From: Haliclystus octoradiatus
Taxonomy: Eukaryota > Cnidaria > Staurozoa > Stauromedusae > Haliclystidae
Length of the DNA: 64,000 bases
Direction: 5' to 3'
Assembly (NCBI GenBank): GCA_916610825.1
Contig: OU744450.1
Span: forward strand, 1,922,001 to 1,986,000
Below the pieces are notes generated by a model. It was not told the DNA's origin. It did no database searches and was given only the letters and a program-made list of their open reading frames with translations. Shown in pieces: positions 313 to 62,460 of this stretch. The position numbers and the translations under genes are program-made. How positions within the stretch are numbered: position 1 is the stretch's first letter; the number at the start of each line of letters is the position of its first letter.

Positions 313-399
313 CGGCTCCAATACGTAAGAAATTTTTTCTTAATAATATATATATATATATATATTAATAATAGAGTCAAGAAAGACACACCATTTTTG

Positions 400-441
400 C
401 TGTTACTTGAAGTTTCACGTTGTTAAACGATCATCAGACAG
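400..441 (-). ncRNA. Hammerhead ribozyme motif, palindrome 1, minus strand
   Basis: Read on the minus strand: stem I CTGT, core CTGATGA, stem II CGTT-TAAC-AACG, GAAA, stem III ACTT-C-AAGT closed by the A15.1-U16.1 pair, cleavage triplet GTA, stem I ACAG. All conserved core nucleotides are present. Stem III is minimal, as in the dimeric hammerheads of some retroelements. Predicted cleavage lies between 404 and 403. Confidence 0.7.
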
Positions 442-470
442 AATACAATTGTATACAATTGAATTGTATT

Positions 471-512
471 CTGTCTGATTATCGTTTAACAACGTGAAAC
501 TTCAAGTAACAG
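471..512 (+). ncRNA. Hammerhead-like motif, palindrome 1, plus strand (core mutated)
   Basis: Mirror copy of the minus-strand motif with identical stems I, II and III, but the core reads CTGATTA instead of CTGATGA. The changed G is essential in known hammerheads, so this arm is probably inactive. Confidence 0.6.
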
Positions 513-730
513 CAAAAATGGTGTGTCTTTCTTGACTCTATTATTATTTACCGCTCTGCTATTTACAAGCATTGAGCACTGTTCACCTGCCAATACTTTT
601 AAATTTTTATTAAATTTGAAACATATTATATATATATATATTAGATATTATCTAATAGCAAAAAATAGTGCTCGATATCATTTGACAGAGCTAAATATAA
701 TAAAAGGAGTCAAAGACTACACATTCATAA

Positions 731-770
731 TTGTTACTAATAGTTTCATGCTTACGCAATCATCAGACAA
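731..770 (-). ncRNA. Hammerhead ribozyme motif, palindrome 2, minus strand
   Basis: Stem I TTGT/ACAA, core CTGATGA, stem II TGC-GTAA-GCA, GAAA, stem III ACTA-T-TAGT, triplet GTA. Same architecture as palindrome 1 with different, still complementary stems. Confidence 0.7.
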
Positions 771-821
771 ATAAACTAATTCTAACTCTAATTCTAATTC
801 TAAATAAACTTATTAGTTTAT

Positions 822-861
822 TTGTCTGATGATTGCGTAAGCATGAAACTATTAGTAACAA
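822..861 (+). ncRNA. Hammerhead ribozyme motif, palindrome 2, plus strand
   Basis: Identical to the minus-strand copy: TTGT, CTGATGA, TGC-GTAA-GCA, GAAA, ACTA-T-TAGT, A, ACAA. Predicted cleavage after 857. This palindrome therefore carries a complete motif on each strand. Confidence 0.72.
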
Positions 862-1220
862 TTATGAATGTGTAGTCTTTGACTCCTTTTATTATATATA
901 TATATAAATATATATATGTTGGCTGAAACGATTGAGAAAACCATTGTTTCGATTGCTTATCAATTAATCCCTAGCGAGTTCTGCCAAACCAGAACAAGAT
1001 CGTGATTGCTTTTGACGAACAAAAGACAAACAATGGTTCTCATATTTTAAGCAAGCTTTCTGTCGGCATTAAATAGACCCTACTAATCCTAAAAAATGGG
1101 CCTAGCCTAGGAATGCTATGGCTACGTTGATCTTACTGAAGTGGGACACTCCTGCCGGCCGATATATTTTAGAGATTATCAGCCCCACATATGAAGTAAA
1201 TATATATAAACATTATGTAC

Positions 1221-35105
<33,885 letters not shown>

Positions 35106-36206: not shown

Positions 36207-39200
36207 GTAATCATGTTTTAAATACTATATTATATTGTGAGCCGCAAGGTAATAGTAATTGTAGGTTGGTTAATAATTGAAACAAAGATTAGTCGAGTTG
36301 AAAAAACTTAATAAAACTTGATTAATCTTTTTATTTCATTTATACGTAGCTCTACTTAACTATATCGAGCACTCTTTTAAATGGTTTGCGTATTATTCTT
36401 ATTATAATTAATATAGTACAAATCTTCTATAGATTGGTTAATATCACAAATTATGAAGATCTGTAACTCTTACGTGACGTCACGAATCGATCGATTTATT
36501 GGATTAAATTAACAGCAAATCACACTAAATATTCGTACAGCAAATGAAGGGGGTTCCTAACTTCCTAGAGAGTGTAAAATTGTCCGATCCCCGTTCCGGC
36601 CACGGAGAAATTATTTCAAAATCGCTCAATTCCCTATTCCAAAATTAACCTTCCTAGCTCTAGACACACTGAGAAATTATTTTAGAATTACGTTCCAAGC
36701 CTGCCAAAATCGTCCAATTCCCATTTGGTAAATTAACCGTCATACAACATCGCGGTTATTTTAACCCTCAAGGGTAGCAATAGTTATAATAACCTCTTAG
36801 GCTATAATCACTTCTCATGAAATCTTTGGTCTAAATTTCTCCGTCGCGACAATTTTTGATAAATTTCCTTTTTCTGCTACCAAATGTTCATCCTCTCATC
36901 CCCGTTTCTTAATACCACTCCCTACCACCCCTCGGCCACTCCTATTTGCGTGACATGTCCGGCCCCTATAAATTGCCGGTAACTGCAGGTATGACAAACA
37001 ATACCCTCTATAAATTGCTTACAGAAAATTTGAAATACATTATACATCACCAAACTTAAGCAAACTATTATCCTAATCATTATTTTATTATTTTAATAGC
37101 AGAACAATCTTCTTAGCTGTGACTATCTAGATGTCCTTCCGTGGCTAAGAAATATTGTTTCAAAAGAACAAAGCCCATACACACTCAACATTGATTCTCA
37201 ACATCATCGACATCATCATTCAAATGGAATCTTACACCAAAGTTATATCACTGCGGAAGATACGAACTTGCATTTGAACAATGTAGGCCTAAAATTAGTA
37301 ATATAAAAGCATAAACAGATTGGTTTCAGTTTATCGGGAGCTTACTTGTAGCTCCTCAAAATAGTTTGACCAGAGTTTCACTTTTAGAAAACGAACGGCA
37401 GCCAGTATCCCAAAAGAACGAAATAAAACTCCCATAAGATTTCTATGTGATCCCGTTTGACCAATTTCATCACTCCCATATTAGCCTGTATTTTAGTTTC
37501 TATGATTTCATTTTCTGGTAATTATAATCTTCTGGAAATTTGCAAATGTAGCCGGAAAATTTGAATTGGCTGTGGCAGTGGAATTAAGCTGTCTAACCTA
37601 GTGCTGTGTCATCGGATTATATATATTAATTGCAAATTCCCTAATGCCTTTGCATGCAATGATATAAATCAAATAATATTGTAGCTGACTATAGCAACAT
37701 TCAATATAATAGCGCATATTCATTGTTGTTCAATATGCACTTCACACTTGATGAATTTAGTTAAAATAAAGATCGAGTATTAACAACCAACGCTTACCAA
37801 CCATCAAATCTCGGCACATCAAAGTAAGCGGGACTTGGAGCCAGTGAAATCGTATATATGAAAGTTATTATTATGCATTATTACAAAGACAGATGATAAA
37901 ATATGAACCTAATAGATTATAAAATGTTCAAAAATGAAATTTAAAGTTCTTCATTATTAAAAACTTGCTGCTTTCTATATATTTTTCATCTGTGATTTTT
38001 GTCATTCTCTTTCAGAATGGCAGTTCACCATTTTTAGTCAGCATCGTTGTTTCATTAAAGAACAGAAATTCTTTGAAATCTAAACATTCAGATGTAAGTT
38101 AATCATAATATATCGCCGAAGGTAACGTTCAAACATTTAATTTAATGTGTAGCATAGACAAAACTATATATTATATGCGAAGGAACCTTCAAAATGAAGC
38201 CAACATCAACACCGGAGCTAGAATCAGCCAAGCATGAATTCTGCAATCGGGTCATGAAGCTGGAATACATTGCAGGAAGAATGTGTTTTTTCGACAACTG
38301 TTTCTGCTTTTCAAAAACTCTTTTAAAAGATGTATAAATATATAAATCAGTGCTGAATTCAAATGAATGGATTTGTTTACATTCTTATCTAATTTTATAT
38401 TGTATTCCAACTGCTGTGCGTAAGTGGATGCTGAAAATGTTCTGTATTTTGCTAGTCAACATTTATTTCAACAGGAATCGCATCTTATCTTATCGGATCA
38501 TCCGTTTATTGTCCTAGTAGGAATTGATGCTGTCTTGGCAGACTCATTATTCAAGAGGTATTTATGAATAGTATGTATACAATAGTCAAGTCTAGATTGA
38601 TTGACCACCATATTAGACGTGTGTGGCCTTGATATACAGACAGAGTAGTGTTGATATCATAGAAACACATATATTAGCGAGACGATCTACTGTATAAGGT
38701 ATCTTATGTTCCTGCTGTAGAGAAGTAGAGGTATTTTGTGAAGATGACACAATAAAAGTCAAAACGTCAAATCTGGTAACAAAAATCAAAGACAACAGTA
38801 TATTTGAAGGTGTTTTATTGATAAAACTCAACGTTTCGGCCATCGTCTGTGACCATTTTCAAGAGTGAAAGAAATTTTTACTGTTGGAAATGGTCACAGA
38901 CGATGGCCGAAACGTTGAGTTATATCAATAAAACACCTTCAAATATACTGTTGTCTTTGATTTTTGTTATCAAATGCTTTAAGAAGAAGCTACTCATCAA
39001 ACGTCAAATCGTTACTTTTATATCGCTCACTTTTTTTAATCGCGACATTAATTATCTATAAGCAATTTAATAATTTCCTTATTAAAAATATATACGTTGC
39101 GTGAAAATTGTGCATAGGGGTGTCGAAACGTATTGCTCAGGTTTACTATTCGGTATAAATCATCTTCTGAAATATAAATTTAAAAAATAATTAGAATACC

Positions 39201-54431: not shown

Positions 54432-56740
54432 AGCACATAATTGGAATTTCAGCTAATCATTAAATTTTATAAACATAAATCATATTATCTATTTCATATA
54501 GGCTAAACTAACAAACCACCATGAGTAATTTTGCTAAATATTGTTGAGTAGTTTTGAATTCATGAGCAAATACCATTGTGAATTATCATGTTATAATTAA
54601 CAAAATCAGTACCCTTAGCATAATTGGAATTTCAGCTAATTATTGAATTTTTTCAAAATAAATCATATTTTCTATTTCACATAAGCTAAACTAACTACCA
54701 TGAGTAATTTTGTCAAATAATATCAGGAGAAGCTTTGAATTTATTAGCAATTAGCAGTGTGAATTATCGTGTTGATATTAACTAAATCGATACCTTTAAC
54801 ATAATTGGAATTTCAAGTAATCATTAAATTTTTTCAACAACAATCATATTATCTATTTCACCTAGGCTAAATTAACTACCATAAGCAATTTCGCTGAATA
54901 ATGTTGAGAATTTTTGAATTTATTAGCAAATAGCATGGTGAATTATCGTGTTGATATTAACAAAATCAGTACCTTAGCATAATTGGAATTTAAGCTAATT
55001 ATTTAAATTTTTCAAAATAAATTATATTCTCTATTTCACATAAGCTAAACTAACTACCACGAGTAATTTTGTCAAATAATATTGAGAAGCTTTGAATTTA
55101 TTAGCAAATAGCAGTTTGAATTATCGTGTTGATATTAACTGAATTGATACCCTAAACATAATTGGAATTTCAGCTAATCAATAAATTTTTTCAACTTCAA
55201 TCATATTATCTATTTCACATAGGCTAAACTAACTACCATAAGCAGTTTCGCTGAACAATGTTGAGAAGCTTTGAATTTATTAGCAATTATCATTGTGAAT
55301 TATTGTGATGATATTAACAAAATCAGTACCATTACCATAATTGGAATTTCAGCTAATTATTGAATTTTTTCAAAATAAATCATATTATCTATTTTACATA
55401 AGCTAAACTAACTACCATGAGTAGTTTTGACAAATAATCTTGAGAAGCTTTGAATTTATTAGCAAATAGCATTGTGAATTATCATGTTGATATTAACAAA
55501 ATCAGTACCCTTAGCATAATTGGAATTTCAGCTAATTATTGAATTTTTTTAAATAAATCATATTTTCTATTTCACATAAGCTAAACTAACTACCATGAGT
55601 AATTTTGTCAAACAATATTGAGAATTTTTGAATTTATTAGCAAATAGCATTGTGAAATATCGTGTTGATATTTACAAAATCAGTACCCTTAGCATAATTG
55701 GAATTTCAGCTAATTATTGAATATTTTAAAAATAAATCAAATTTTCTATTTCACATAAGCTAAAATAACTGCCATGAGTAATTTTGTCAAATAATATTGA
55801 GAAGCTTTGAATTTATTAGCAAATAGCAGTTTGAATTGTTGTGTTGATATTAGCTGAATCGATACCCTTAACATAATTGGAATTTCAGCTAATCATTAAT
55901 AAATTTTTTCAACATCAATCATATTATCTATTTCACCTAGGCTAAACTAACTACCATAACCAATTTCGCTGAATAATGTTGAGAATTTTTGAATTTATTA
56001 GCAAATAGCATTGTGAATTATCGTGTTGATATTAACAAAATCAGTACCCTTACCATAATTGGAATTTCAGCTAATTATTTAATTTTTTCAAAATAAATCA
56101 TATTTTCTATTTCACGTAAGCTAAACTAACTACCATGAGTAATTTTGTCAAACAATATTGAGAATTTTTGAATTTATTAGCAAATAACATTGTTAATTAT
56201 CGTGTTGATATTAACAAAATCAGTACCCTTAGCATAATTGGAATTTCAGCTAATTATTTAATTTTTTCAAAATAAATCATATTATCTATTTCACATAGGC
56301 TAAACTAACTACCATAAGCAGTTTCGCTGAACAATGTTGAGAAGCTTTGAACTTATTAGCAAATAACATTGTGAATTATCGTGTTGATATTAACAAAATC
56401 AGTACCCTTAGCATAATTGGAATTTCACCTAATTATTGAATTTTTTCAAAATAAATTATATTTTGTAATTTTGTCAAACAATATTGAGAATTAGTGAATT
56501 TATTAGCAAATAACATTGTAAATTATCGTGTTGATATTAACAAAATCAGTACCCTAAGCATAATTAGAACTTCAGCTGATCATTAAATTTTTTAATATAA
56601 GTTATATTATCTATTTCACATATGCTAACTACAATGAGTAGTTTTGTTAAATCATTTTTAAAAGTTTTGATTTTATGAGCAAAAAGCATTGTGAATTTTC
56701 GTGATGATATTTTGTAAACTATTCTAGATTGCTACATTAA
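54432..56740. repeat. Satellite array of about 13 units of 180 bp
   Basis: Each unit begins near CATAATTGGAATTTCAGCTA and contains TCATATTATCTATTTCACAT, GAGTAATTTTGTCAAATAAT and GTGTTGATATTAACAAAATC. Unit starts step by 177-183 bp; one unit near 56460 is shortened. Units diverge by perhaps 5-15 percent, with alternating variants. Confidence 0.9.
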
Positions 56741-58009: not shown

Positions 58010-58544
58010 AAAATGATATTGTATAGACTGAGCATTTTACAGATCTAAAACAGAACGTTACTCAGAGTAACTTCAACTTCACGTAAAAATAAAAACACCA
58101 TAAACACTTTCGCATTTCTTGTTTAAGTTAAATTGTTTTTTCAAAATGTTAAGAAGGATTGGTCCTTCAATTGTCATATAGAAATTGGATTTTTGGATAA
58201 TATGTTTATGAACAAAGTAAGTATGTTTATGAATTGTTTGACGAAAGTTGCAAGCCAGGGAGAACTAATGACGTCGTGTCGCAGTTTATCTAACAACCGA
58301 GGTCCATTGATTTAACCTATTTTCTAAATGCAAGCAGCTTGCAGTTCGATCAAGTAATCCATTCGTCCCTAGGTCCGTTAGAAATCGCTTAGGACTCCAG
58401 GGTTTGGATATTTTTGAATATGTTTGGTTTCATCACCTCTCATCGGTCATGGTGCCGTGTTTAGTGCGTCTGACTAGTGTGCAGTTCTTGCTAGTTCAAG
58501 TTTTGGTATGGTCATTCGGAAATATTAAATTATTTTATTGACTA

Positions 58545-58797
58545 AAGGGTTACCACATACTTGCCATGTTTGTATTCATATTTACTAAACGAGAAAATGT
58601 TGGGAGACACGAGTGAAGCGCTAAAATATCACGAGCTCCGAGCGAGTGAAGCGCTAAAAAATCACGAGCTCCGAGCGAGTGAAGCGCTAAGAAATCACGA
58701 GCTCCGAGCGAGTGATTTTTAGCTTCCCGAGTGTCTCCCAACATTTTAGAGTTTAGTAAATATGAATACAAACATTTGCAAGCATTTGGTAACCCTT
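58545..58797. mobile_element. AAGGGTTACCACA fold-back element with three 33-bp repeats
   Basis: Inverse ends AAGGGTTACCACATACTTGC and GCAAGCATTTGGTAACCCTT. Inside, GAGTGAAGCGCTAAAAAATC then ACGAGCTCCGAGC is repeated three times in tandem (58611-58710). Confidence 0.8.
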
Positions 58798-59624
58798 TTC
58801 TAAAATAAAACAAATGTCGGAATCTCATTCGACGGCGAATTTTCAATACATGAATTCACAATTTAAAATTCAATTTCAATTCATAAACCAAGCATAAAGA
58901 CAATCCCACAACAAGATGAAGATAAATATTGTCCAATAAAGAAAGACATATACAAGAACGTCTGTAATATAAGTGGTACAATAGTTCTTTAGCAAAACAG
59001 CGACGTAGCCTATAATTGTCTTTCATTCTGTGTTATTAGTTTGCATGTTACACGACCAATAACTCATTCACCACGCTTTTCAATAAATATAAACATCTTG
59101 AGCTAAATGTCGTTTTGTAAATCGTAGGCATTATTGAGTTATTTATTGGATTGTTATCAAAAAGTTATAAATTCTGTATTTTATCACAGATCAAACTTTT
59201 TGAAGCTTGCGGTTTTTCCAGGTTTTTGGAGCCATGCTTTACCCTAGGATTTCATGCACGCTCTTTCTACCAATCAGATCTCAGAAAACCTTCGTGATAT
59301 TTTAGAATGTTCGTTCATAATACGTCACCAAGATGTTCATAATAGCTTCTGACATTTTTAAACCTATTGAGTGCGGATATTTGATAAAGCTGCGGCATTA
59401 AAGCATCAGGTTGCCATGGATTGCAATTTCCGTGAACCTATAAGGTAACATGATTGACAATGGCGTGCCGTTTTTTTAATAAACTGAAATACTGTACGAA
59501 ACAACAAAACTTTAATATTTACAACTTTAGATAATAAGGTCACTGCAGAGGCCATCATTTGAGTCGTCAATTCTCACTCAGGAGGTGAATCGTGTTTGGA
59601 AGTATAATTTTCTCACTATCCCAT

Positions 59625-60984: not shown

Positions 60985-62460
60985 AATCAAGAGGAAGAAG
61001 TCATTGATGCGATTTTGTCAACTTCAGATCATAAAGCTACTGGATTAGATATAATTACAAATGAACATTTGAATTTTCTTTGATATGTCTGAATCTTGGT
61101 AAGATCCCGCAGCGCTGGTGTTGCAGCATAGTTAAGGTCTAAAAATAGATCCAAATAATTATCGTGGTATATCTCTTTTATGCTGTCCTCTCAAAGTACT
61201 TAATACACTTCTCAATCGTCTTTTTAAAGACAATATATTTCACTTAGTTCCATCAGAACAATTTGGCTTCCAAGAAAGCAAAGGTAGTATACAACCTTTA
61301 AATATTTTAATAAATGATATTTTTAACCAATTTTCTCAATCCAAAGAGAAGCGGCACATGCACTCTTGCTTTATGACTTTACCGAAGCTTTTGACAATGT
61401 CAACCATTTTAAGTTGATCACAAAATTGAAACAAGATTTTGATGTGAATGGTTTGATTTTACTTTTAATTTCTGCATTATTACAAGATAATCATATTTCT
61501 ATTGACGATGGTCTCAATTATTCAAAACCAATTGAGCAGAATCATGGCTTTGTCCAACGAGATTGCCTTTCTCCAACATTGTTTATTTTATTTATTGTTG
61601 ATCTTGCTACACAGTTGAGAAAGACTTGTACCGATCTCACATTTTCATTTTATGCTGATGATTTAGTTTTTTATTCCTCTAGTAAAGACTGCTGTTTGTA
61701 AACTTCAAGAAAAGCAAAATAGTAAAGTTTAGAAAAGGAGGTGAACTCAAGAAAACACATATTCTTATTTATGAAAATTAAATCGTGGAATTTGTCAATT
61801 CATATGATTGCCTTGGTGTATGCTTACAACAAACATTGACATTCACACAACATAAATCAAATAAATTTAACAAATTTATGGTAACTATTGGTGCCTTAAC
61901 CTCCCAACAGTGTCATTGACAACAGCTTTAGCCTTCAATGGTTTTCTCTATGGAAGTTTCTCCTGTTATTACTTACGTTTTCGAAGTCATAGCTCCATTT
62001 TAAAAATTAAATCAGCTCGTCTATATCTCGACAGAATAAAAGCAGCATATTTGAAACGTACTCTTGGTGTCTACACAAATTCATCAAACACATTGATGTT
62101 TATTTTCTGTAATACACCTTCGTTTGTTGAAGAAATCAAGAGTCAATATCCTTTCCAAACATATGCTATTGAATTATGCATCAAATAACGTAATGAAATA
62201 GTATATACGCTGCAATCTGATGATTATATAAACGCATCTATTCTAAAAACTCTAAATTGGCAGGCATGCAACCAAAGCAACTGAAATTACATTGCTAGAT
62301 TGTCCGTTCACGGCTTTCATTACGGAATATGTACTAACGAAGTCTTCCATGAGCCTAAACCAAGCTGCTACTGCCAAGAGTGTAATGTGAGTGCAAATGA
62401 TCTCTATCACATCACGAAGTGTCCATCAATTCTTTCATGTACCCAATACATCAAAAACAA
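60985..62460 (+). pseudogene. Broken LINE (non-LTR retrotransposon) reverse transcriptase
   Basis: Frames on the plus strand shift several times. In order: DAILSTSDHKATGLDIITNE (RT start), NYRGISL, LLNRLFKDNIFHLVPSEQFG, YDFTEAFDNVNHFKLITKL (first catalytic Asp region), QRDCLSPTLFILFIVDL, FSFYADDLVFYSS (catalytic YADD box), then a C-terminal CYCQEC...HITKC zinc-knuckle-like motif at about 62370-62425. No endonuclease or ORF1 is seen upstream, so it is 5'-truncated and dead. The (AAT)n-rich stretch at 62480-62640 may be its 3' tail. Confidence 0.85.

Follow-up and report, generated by a model that had tools for sequence, protein, structure and literature searches.

Short palindromic copies of Penelope-like terminal repeats with minimal hammerhead motifs in the genome of Haliclystus octoradiatus

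Hammerhead ribozymes are known from Penelope-like elements (PLEs) of animal genomes. The review passages covered here, which refer to Cervera and de la Pena (2014) and Lunse et al. (2017), place minimal type I hammerheads in the pseudo-long terminal repeats (pLTRs) of PLEs, in thousands of copies and in many animal genomes, and state that they are thought to cleave as dimers. For Penelope of Adineta vaga, the covered parts of PMC3846280 describe head-to-head inverted pLTRs, palindromes at the junctions, a 31-bp tail on one inverted repeat, AT-rich targets, and short target duplications; the word hammerhead is absent from that paper. An Anolis PLE contains a hammerhead in its pLTR and was observed in vitro to initiate at two internal sites, by which the tail is defined, with both strands of AT-rich targets being cut and extended (covered parts of PMC11167929). 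Non-LTR retrozymes of animals are small non-coding direct tandem repeats of 150–450 bp, mostly with classical hammerheads (passages of PMC7229834). The stretch of DNA analyzed here, hereafter the window, comprises 64,000 nt of the Haliclystus octoradiatus genome (bases 1,922,001–1,986,000 of contig 6; assembly of 262 Mb in 33 contigs), and contains three palindromes (P1, P2, and P3; Table 1) with hammerhead motifs. These palindromes are almost certainly short non-coding insertions of a PLE terminal repeat, the RNA of which carries a minimal type I hammerhead.

The motifs resemble the PLE hammerheads of the reviews covered in their minimal type I form and their location in a pLTR, but many copies here are head-to-head palindromes that lack an open reading frame (ORF). 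Inverted repeats, a one-sided tail, AT-rich targets, and short duplications are common to this genome and Adineta vaga, whereas the Adineta examples in the covered parts of PMC3846280 enclose an ORF or captured DNA, and the insertions here are about 200 bp long and numerous. In contrast to the palindromes of Haliclystus, no head-to-head products are mentioned in the covered parts of PMC11167929. The retrozymes, as described in the covered passages of PMC7229834, are likewise short repeats of animal genomes that lack coding capacity and contain type I hammerheads, but are arranged as direct repeats with mostly classical motifs, whereas the present copies are palindromic and minimal, although direct arrays with a 94-bp period also occur. 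Hammerheads are unmentioned in the covered passages of PMC12910113. PLE hammerheads, inverted terminal repeats, and the one-sided tail are already in print. A preliminary description of this DNA, made from its letters, had proposed an undescribed class of small mobile RNA, separated from PLEs by the direct repeats usual in the latter. Neither proposal was upheld, because the motif lies within the terminal repeats of PLEs, for which inverted head-to-head copies of these repeats, optionally with a tail on one side, are described in the covered parts of PMC3846280. The unusual features here are the abundance of the ORF-less mini-palindromes and the evidence provided by their ends. In the literature covered, which excludes the full text of two key PLE-hammerhead papers, no description was found of abundant ORF-less mini-palindromes with a sharp 5' edge by a TTTTTCATTA box, nor of a 3' tail on exactly one arm of such palindromes, of their 15–18-bp target duplications, or of a two-family palindrome.

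Within the window, the motif pattern CTGANGAN{6,30}GAAACN{3,20}GTA matched three sites, namely 404–437 (-), 735–766 (-), and 826–857 (+), whereas 100 shuffles averaged 0.09 matches and never exceeded 2. A covariance model (R2) of 16 exact motifs, all absent from the window, yielded six strong matches, one on each arm of each palindrome (E 3.1e-12 to 3.0e-6; next best 1.1); the training families are related to the window copies, and the test was therefore not on independent sequence. No Rfam hammerhead model matched the window at the gathering threshold or three of its stretches at E<=10, and all six window motifs were missed in these scans, which were confined to the window. The lack of a covariance-model match, which the preliminary description had named as a refutation, was literally found for Rfam, but R2 does match. 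The Rfam models may not cover the minimal PLE hammerhead, because the review passages covered describe that form as lacking helix III or tertiary contacts. At loose E-values, Rfam microRNA-hairpin models also fitted the palindromes, as any long hairpin may do, and these fits were discarded. Both fold-backs first noticed (P1 and P2) were confirmed as inverted repeats with 99% identity. The hammerhead layout that had been claimed for both of their strands is intact in P1 minus and in both copies of P2, whereas P1 plus reads CTGATTA. P3 (2437–2584) shares this layout but for a longer stem II. The minimal type I core, CUGANGA...GAAA...NUH with three helices, was undamaged together with its stems in three of the six window copies, and the damaged ones were P1 plus and both copies of P3. 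A tblastn search with PLE endonuclease and reverse transcriptase (RT) pieces gave no window match at E<=0.01, and the window copies, as non-autonomous terminal pieces of PLEs, encode no PLE protein.

Conservation of the fold was evident from an alignment of 25 distinct exact motifs, in which pairing occurred in 90.3% of cells. Compensatory changes occupied 49 cells, compared with 18.2 after shuffling (49 being reached in 0 of 500 shuffles) and 0–12 when the alignment was slid. A full 4-bp stem I was present in 26 of 43 distinct motifs that were unselected for pairing (13.4 after shuffling, maximum of 20 in 1000). The stems differ between P1 and P2 yet pair, as originally reported, and the other genome families extend this covariation. 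In stem III, the first two pairs are invariant, the third is nearly so, and the fourth varies among U-A, C-G, and A-U. The fourth pair of the 4-bp stem III described at the outset covaries even though a loop of 1 nt is too short for the hairpin to close within a monomer. Covariation at this position would fit stem III pairing between two motif copies, which a review, in the part covered, reports for PLE hammerheads. RNAalifold recovered stems I and II, and not stem III, from the first alignment, and ViennaRNA dimer folds showed no stem III dimer in a run that was uninformative. Twelve matches with stem I CAGTA/TGCTG were dropped as probably unrelated. Selection on the fold as the force that shaped the hammerhead motifs is supported by these results.

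Genome-wide, the core pattern had 1,825 + 1,877 = 3,702 matches, a count that includes a few sites counted twice through overlapping gap lengths, compared with 11 + 11 = 22 for the reversed control. This supports placing the motifs in amplified mobile DNA, just as the covariation and the R2 matches support the early suggestion of an RNA fold under selection. Close head-to-head pairs, defined as motif matches 10–40 nt apart, numbered 636, compared with 3 in the control. A few dozen of these may be due to chance, because composition predicts about 24, and at least 4 of the 50 rows listed resemble chance matches on visual inspection. A comparison of stem I retained all 50, and 25 pairs had the same 4-mer on both arms (random mean of 7.85, maximum of 16 in 5000). 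Long copies elsewhere in the genome carry an ORF for a GIY-YIG-type endonuclease. A tandem pLTR-ORF-pLTR organization, with a 251-aa ORF between two motif copies, was found at L079 (the prefix L denotes loci collected by the motif search). Candidate traces of a telomerase-like RT in the same unit are this 251-aa ORF and, in two homologues, YRDDG upstream of the endonuclease; motifs of this kind are assigned to PLEs, but no Pfam or PDB match was obtained. The structure-search reading of protein P0001 was confined to the endonuclease. Two 3' ends were identified, corresponding to an optional 3' tail of the PLE type. The motifs form a real, heavily amplified hammerhead family within known PLE terminal repeats, in short palindromic form.

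The ends of the palindromes are informative. Complex direct repeats of 15–18 bp (<=1 mismatch) flank 7 of 38 palindromes, compared with 31 of 1392 mismatched flank pairs, and many other palindromes sit in AT repeats that would mask a duplication. The flanking duplications point to the palindromes as single insertion events. The 3' tail was present on exactly one arm in all of the first 39 palindromes, a set obtained from 39 rows by leaving out a duplicate each of L010 and L034 and including L013 and another L034 palindrome; the same held for 12 of 14 that were viewed subsequently. In total, 51 of 53 palindromes, judged by eye and including some duplicates of one another, had one tail, and none had zero; L084:603 was not judgeable. 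The tails of L027 and L048, counted among the 39, are partly deleted. A strict tail pattern, which misses some tails, occurred in 27 of 65 single copies. The natural sequence upstream of the core extends for 16 nt at most in all 20 palindromic arms of family A, two of which are array units. Of 19 family A singles, by contrast, 13 retained at least 23 nt of it, and 11 of these the full 42 nt examined. A GTATGTTTTTCATTA-like box lies just upstream in long copies of several families, and its pattern was detected in 21 of 67 non-palindromic copies vs. 3 of 73 palindromic copies. Because the palindromic arms stop at a discrete edge at this point, and the box is seen mainly in non-palindromic copies, we infer that the RNA 5' end lies next to the TTTTTCATTA box. 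Direct tandem arrays of hammerhead units with a 94-bp period were observed at G000 C2:34255799–34256213 (L062), C2:34664444–34664953, and 34904415–34904642; two inner units of the L062 array retain 15 nt of natural upstream sequence, which is the same edge as that of the palindrome arms.

Partner arms ran through the predicted cleavage site in 84 of 88 cases, with one ending exactly at the site (L023) and three ending 8–29 nt beyond it. The copied RNA was therefore mostly uncut, as in vitro. Both arms of each palindrome were scored separately, and collection by motif search under-samples arms that lack the motif, so that the sample favors arms that contain it. In L023:1501 (by alignment) and L003:1501 (by eye, unscored), the antisense arm ends at the predicted cleavage site, as if cut RNA had been the template.

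The preferred, unproven mechanism is two-ended target-primed reverse transcription from the RNA 5' end, which is given an even chance of being correct. The PLE enzyme would nick both target strands approximately 15 bp apart, and at each nick the copying of element RNA would begin at an internal site. As a rule, one of these start sites would be distal, resulting in the tailed arm, and the other proximal, resulting in the tailless arm. Copying would end by run-off where the RNA starts, immediately downstream of the TTTTTCATTA box, and the two short cDNAs ending at that edge would join head-to-head via self-complementary or re-copied AT-rich ends. The resulting palindrome would lie between the copies of the duplicated target and bear one hammerhead per strand. 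The ribozyme would probably cut tandem or read-through transcripts, perhaps as a dimer via stem III. In a more specific version, to which slightly less than even weight is assigned, the mini-palindromes are paired insertion footprints, in which two enzyme subunits began reverse transcription at opposite nicks, each on the 5' end of its own PLE RNA and usually with a different one of the two start sites, and the run-off cDNAs served as mutual second strands. In L076, the minus arm belongs to one family (score of 55, next 37) and the plus arm to another (100; 29 to the first family), the tail is on one arm only, and a 12-bp exact repeat occurs on both sides. A repeat of this length was reached in 29 out of 5000 resampled pairs of flanks and in 7 out of 5000 40-mers drawn at random from the genome. 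Identity and mechanism taken together, this is the best explanation of the palindromes and is considered moderately probable.

Several observations weigh against it. Pairs that changed on both sides (7 vs. 6.3 shuffled) and further pair types (18 vs. 18.0 shuffled) did not exceed the shuffled level appreciably, and stem II pairs in just 75% of cells, with its first pair in 7 of 25 motifs. The RNA 5' end is placed from DNA only, and the Anolis PLE displayed no strand difference in start site in vitro (covered parts of PMC11167929). The one-tail rule is not absolute, as L035:2747(-) and L059:1505(+) carry a tail on both arms, which neither this mechanism nor the snap-back described below explains. 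L076 is the sole two-family palindrome seen and could represent two separate events. Loops shared by P2 with L034 and by L068 with L070 (1755–1804) mark composite or duplicated palindromes, and indicate that whole palindromes can also be copied or duplicated. A marker, the minor form of which occurs in 5 of 22 family A singles, differed between the arms of just one palindrome in 56, which lies next to a tandem array, indicating that the two arms nearly always share a source; of the nine palindromes in this set that were displayed with their letters, two come from a family other than A.

This near-uniform concordance (55 of 56) would be explained more simply, and without extra assumptions, by a cis snap-back, in which the 3' end of a cDNA made at a single nick turns back on itself close to the RNA 5' end and serves as primer for the second strand, the latter then being joined to the other target end. 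Self-priming has been proposed for PLE palindromes (PMC3846280, in the parts covered), and many loops resemble re-copied local sequence by eye. Arms are often identical, with those of L048 sharing 94.7% vs. at most 82.9% with other fetched family copies, and those of L006 and L080 sharing 100% vs. 82.9%. However, a snap-back cannot produce L076, 2 of 25 same-stem pairs have no unpaired centre, and it offers no reason for the second arm usually stopping at the proximal 3' end. Arm identity within family A failed to separate the two-template and snap-back models. The snap-back is possible, if somewhat doubtful. The shared loops would also be expected if palindromes were themselves mobile, an existing one being transcribed and re-inserted whole, but only a few share loops, and most loops differ among the listed and fetched palindromes even within a family, which renders this explanation unlikely. 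Two independent adjacent insertions could account for L076, and clustering is likely because insertions favor AT repeats; nevertheless, duplications flank whole palindromes and 51 of 53 palindromes have one tail, and either such insertions or a foldback DNA transposon is very improbable. A viroid-like circular RNA, copied into DNA and bearing hammerheads of both polarities, might be suggested by the motif on both strands and the 94-bp direct arrays, but is hardly credible given the linkage to PLE ORFs, the target duplications, the one-sided tails, and a search of viral contigs with one motif pattern that gave 0 matches.

Table 1. Coordinates of the palindromes and hammerhead motifs in the window.
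Feature	Position	Strand or arms	Evidence or remarks
P1 palindrome, two head-to-head PLE terminal units	366–546	arms 366–450 / 462–546	99% identity, 11 nt spacer
P1 minus hammerhead, core intact	399–442	-	R2 E 3.1e-12; predicted cleavage between 404 and 403
P1 plus hammerhead, core change CTGATTA, predicted inactive	470–513	+	R2 E 3.8e-10
P1 3' tail (GCTCTG...GAGCAC), right arm only; outer end approximate	547–628	+	matching tail in L081
P2 3' tail, left-hand (minus) arm only; outer end approximate	643–691	-	read from sequence
P2 palindrome, two head-to-head PLE terminal units	692–900	arms 692–780 / 812–900	99% identity, 31 nt spacer
P2 minus hammerhead, intact	730–771	-	R2 E 1.2e-11
P2 plus hammerhead, intact; predicted cleavage after 857	821–862	+	R2 E 1.2e-11
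P3 left target-site duplication (ATATAACAAACCATT)	2347–2361	+	15 bp
P3 whole insertion, 226 bp	2362–2587	arms 2437–2508 / 2515–2584; tail on left arm only	
P3 minus hammerhead, core present, stem III interrupted	2466–2514	-	R2 E 3.0e-6; alignment
P3 plus hammerhead without one core base and without stem I 5' half	2510–2555	+	R2 E 2.8e-6; alignment
P3 right target-site duplication (ATATAACAAACCTTT)	2588–2602	+	14/15 identical to left copy

The window also harbored a Vps53 exon (Pfam E 5.6e-15), which marks the DNA as eukaryotic, and a reverse transcriptase fragment at 61327–61701 (Pfam RVT_1 E 3.6e-12) that was unmatched by the PLE pieces. A further palindrome at 38771–38975, with 100-nt arms of 94% identity and a 5 nt spacer, had no hammerhead match. 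Tandem repeats were located at 19948–22146 (480-bp unit, 4.6 copies, 95% matches) and 54436–56462 (179-bp unit, 11.3 copies), and an inverted-repeat element at 58533–58809 encloses a 33-bp tandem repeat.

These footprints bear on the question of how PLE insertion is completed and why terminal repeats are frequently inverted with a one-sided tail. Hundreds of minimal, sharply bounded insertion products are available in this genome, and allow start and stop sites, the rules of joining, and the sharing of templates to be tallied and compared with the in vitro reaction. If true, a paired insertion mode would explain the one-tailed palindromes, and would make a large class of ORF-less hammerhead elements that carry the ribozyme in both polarities.
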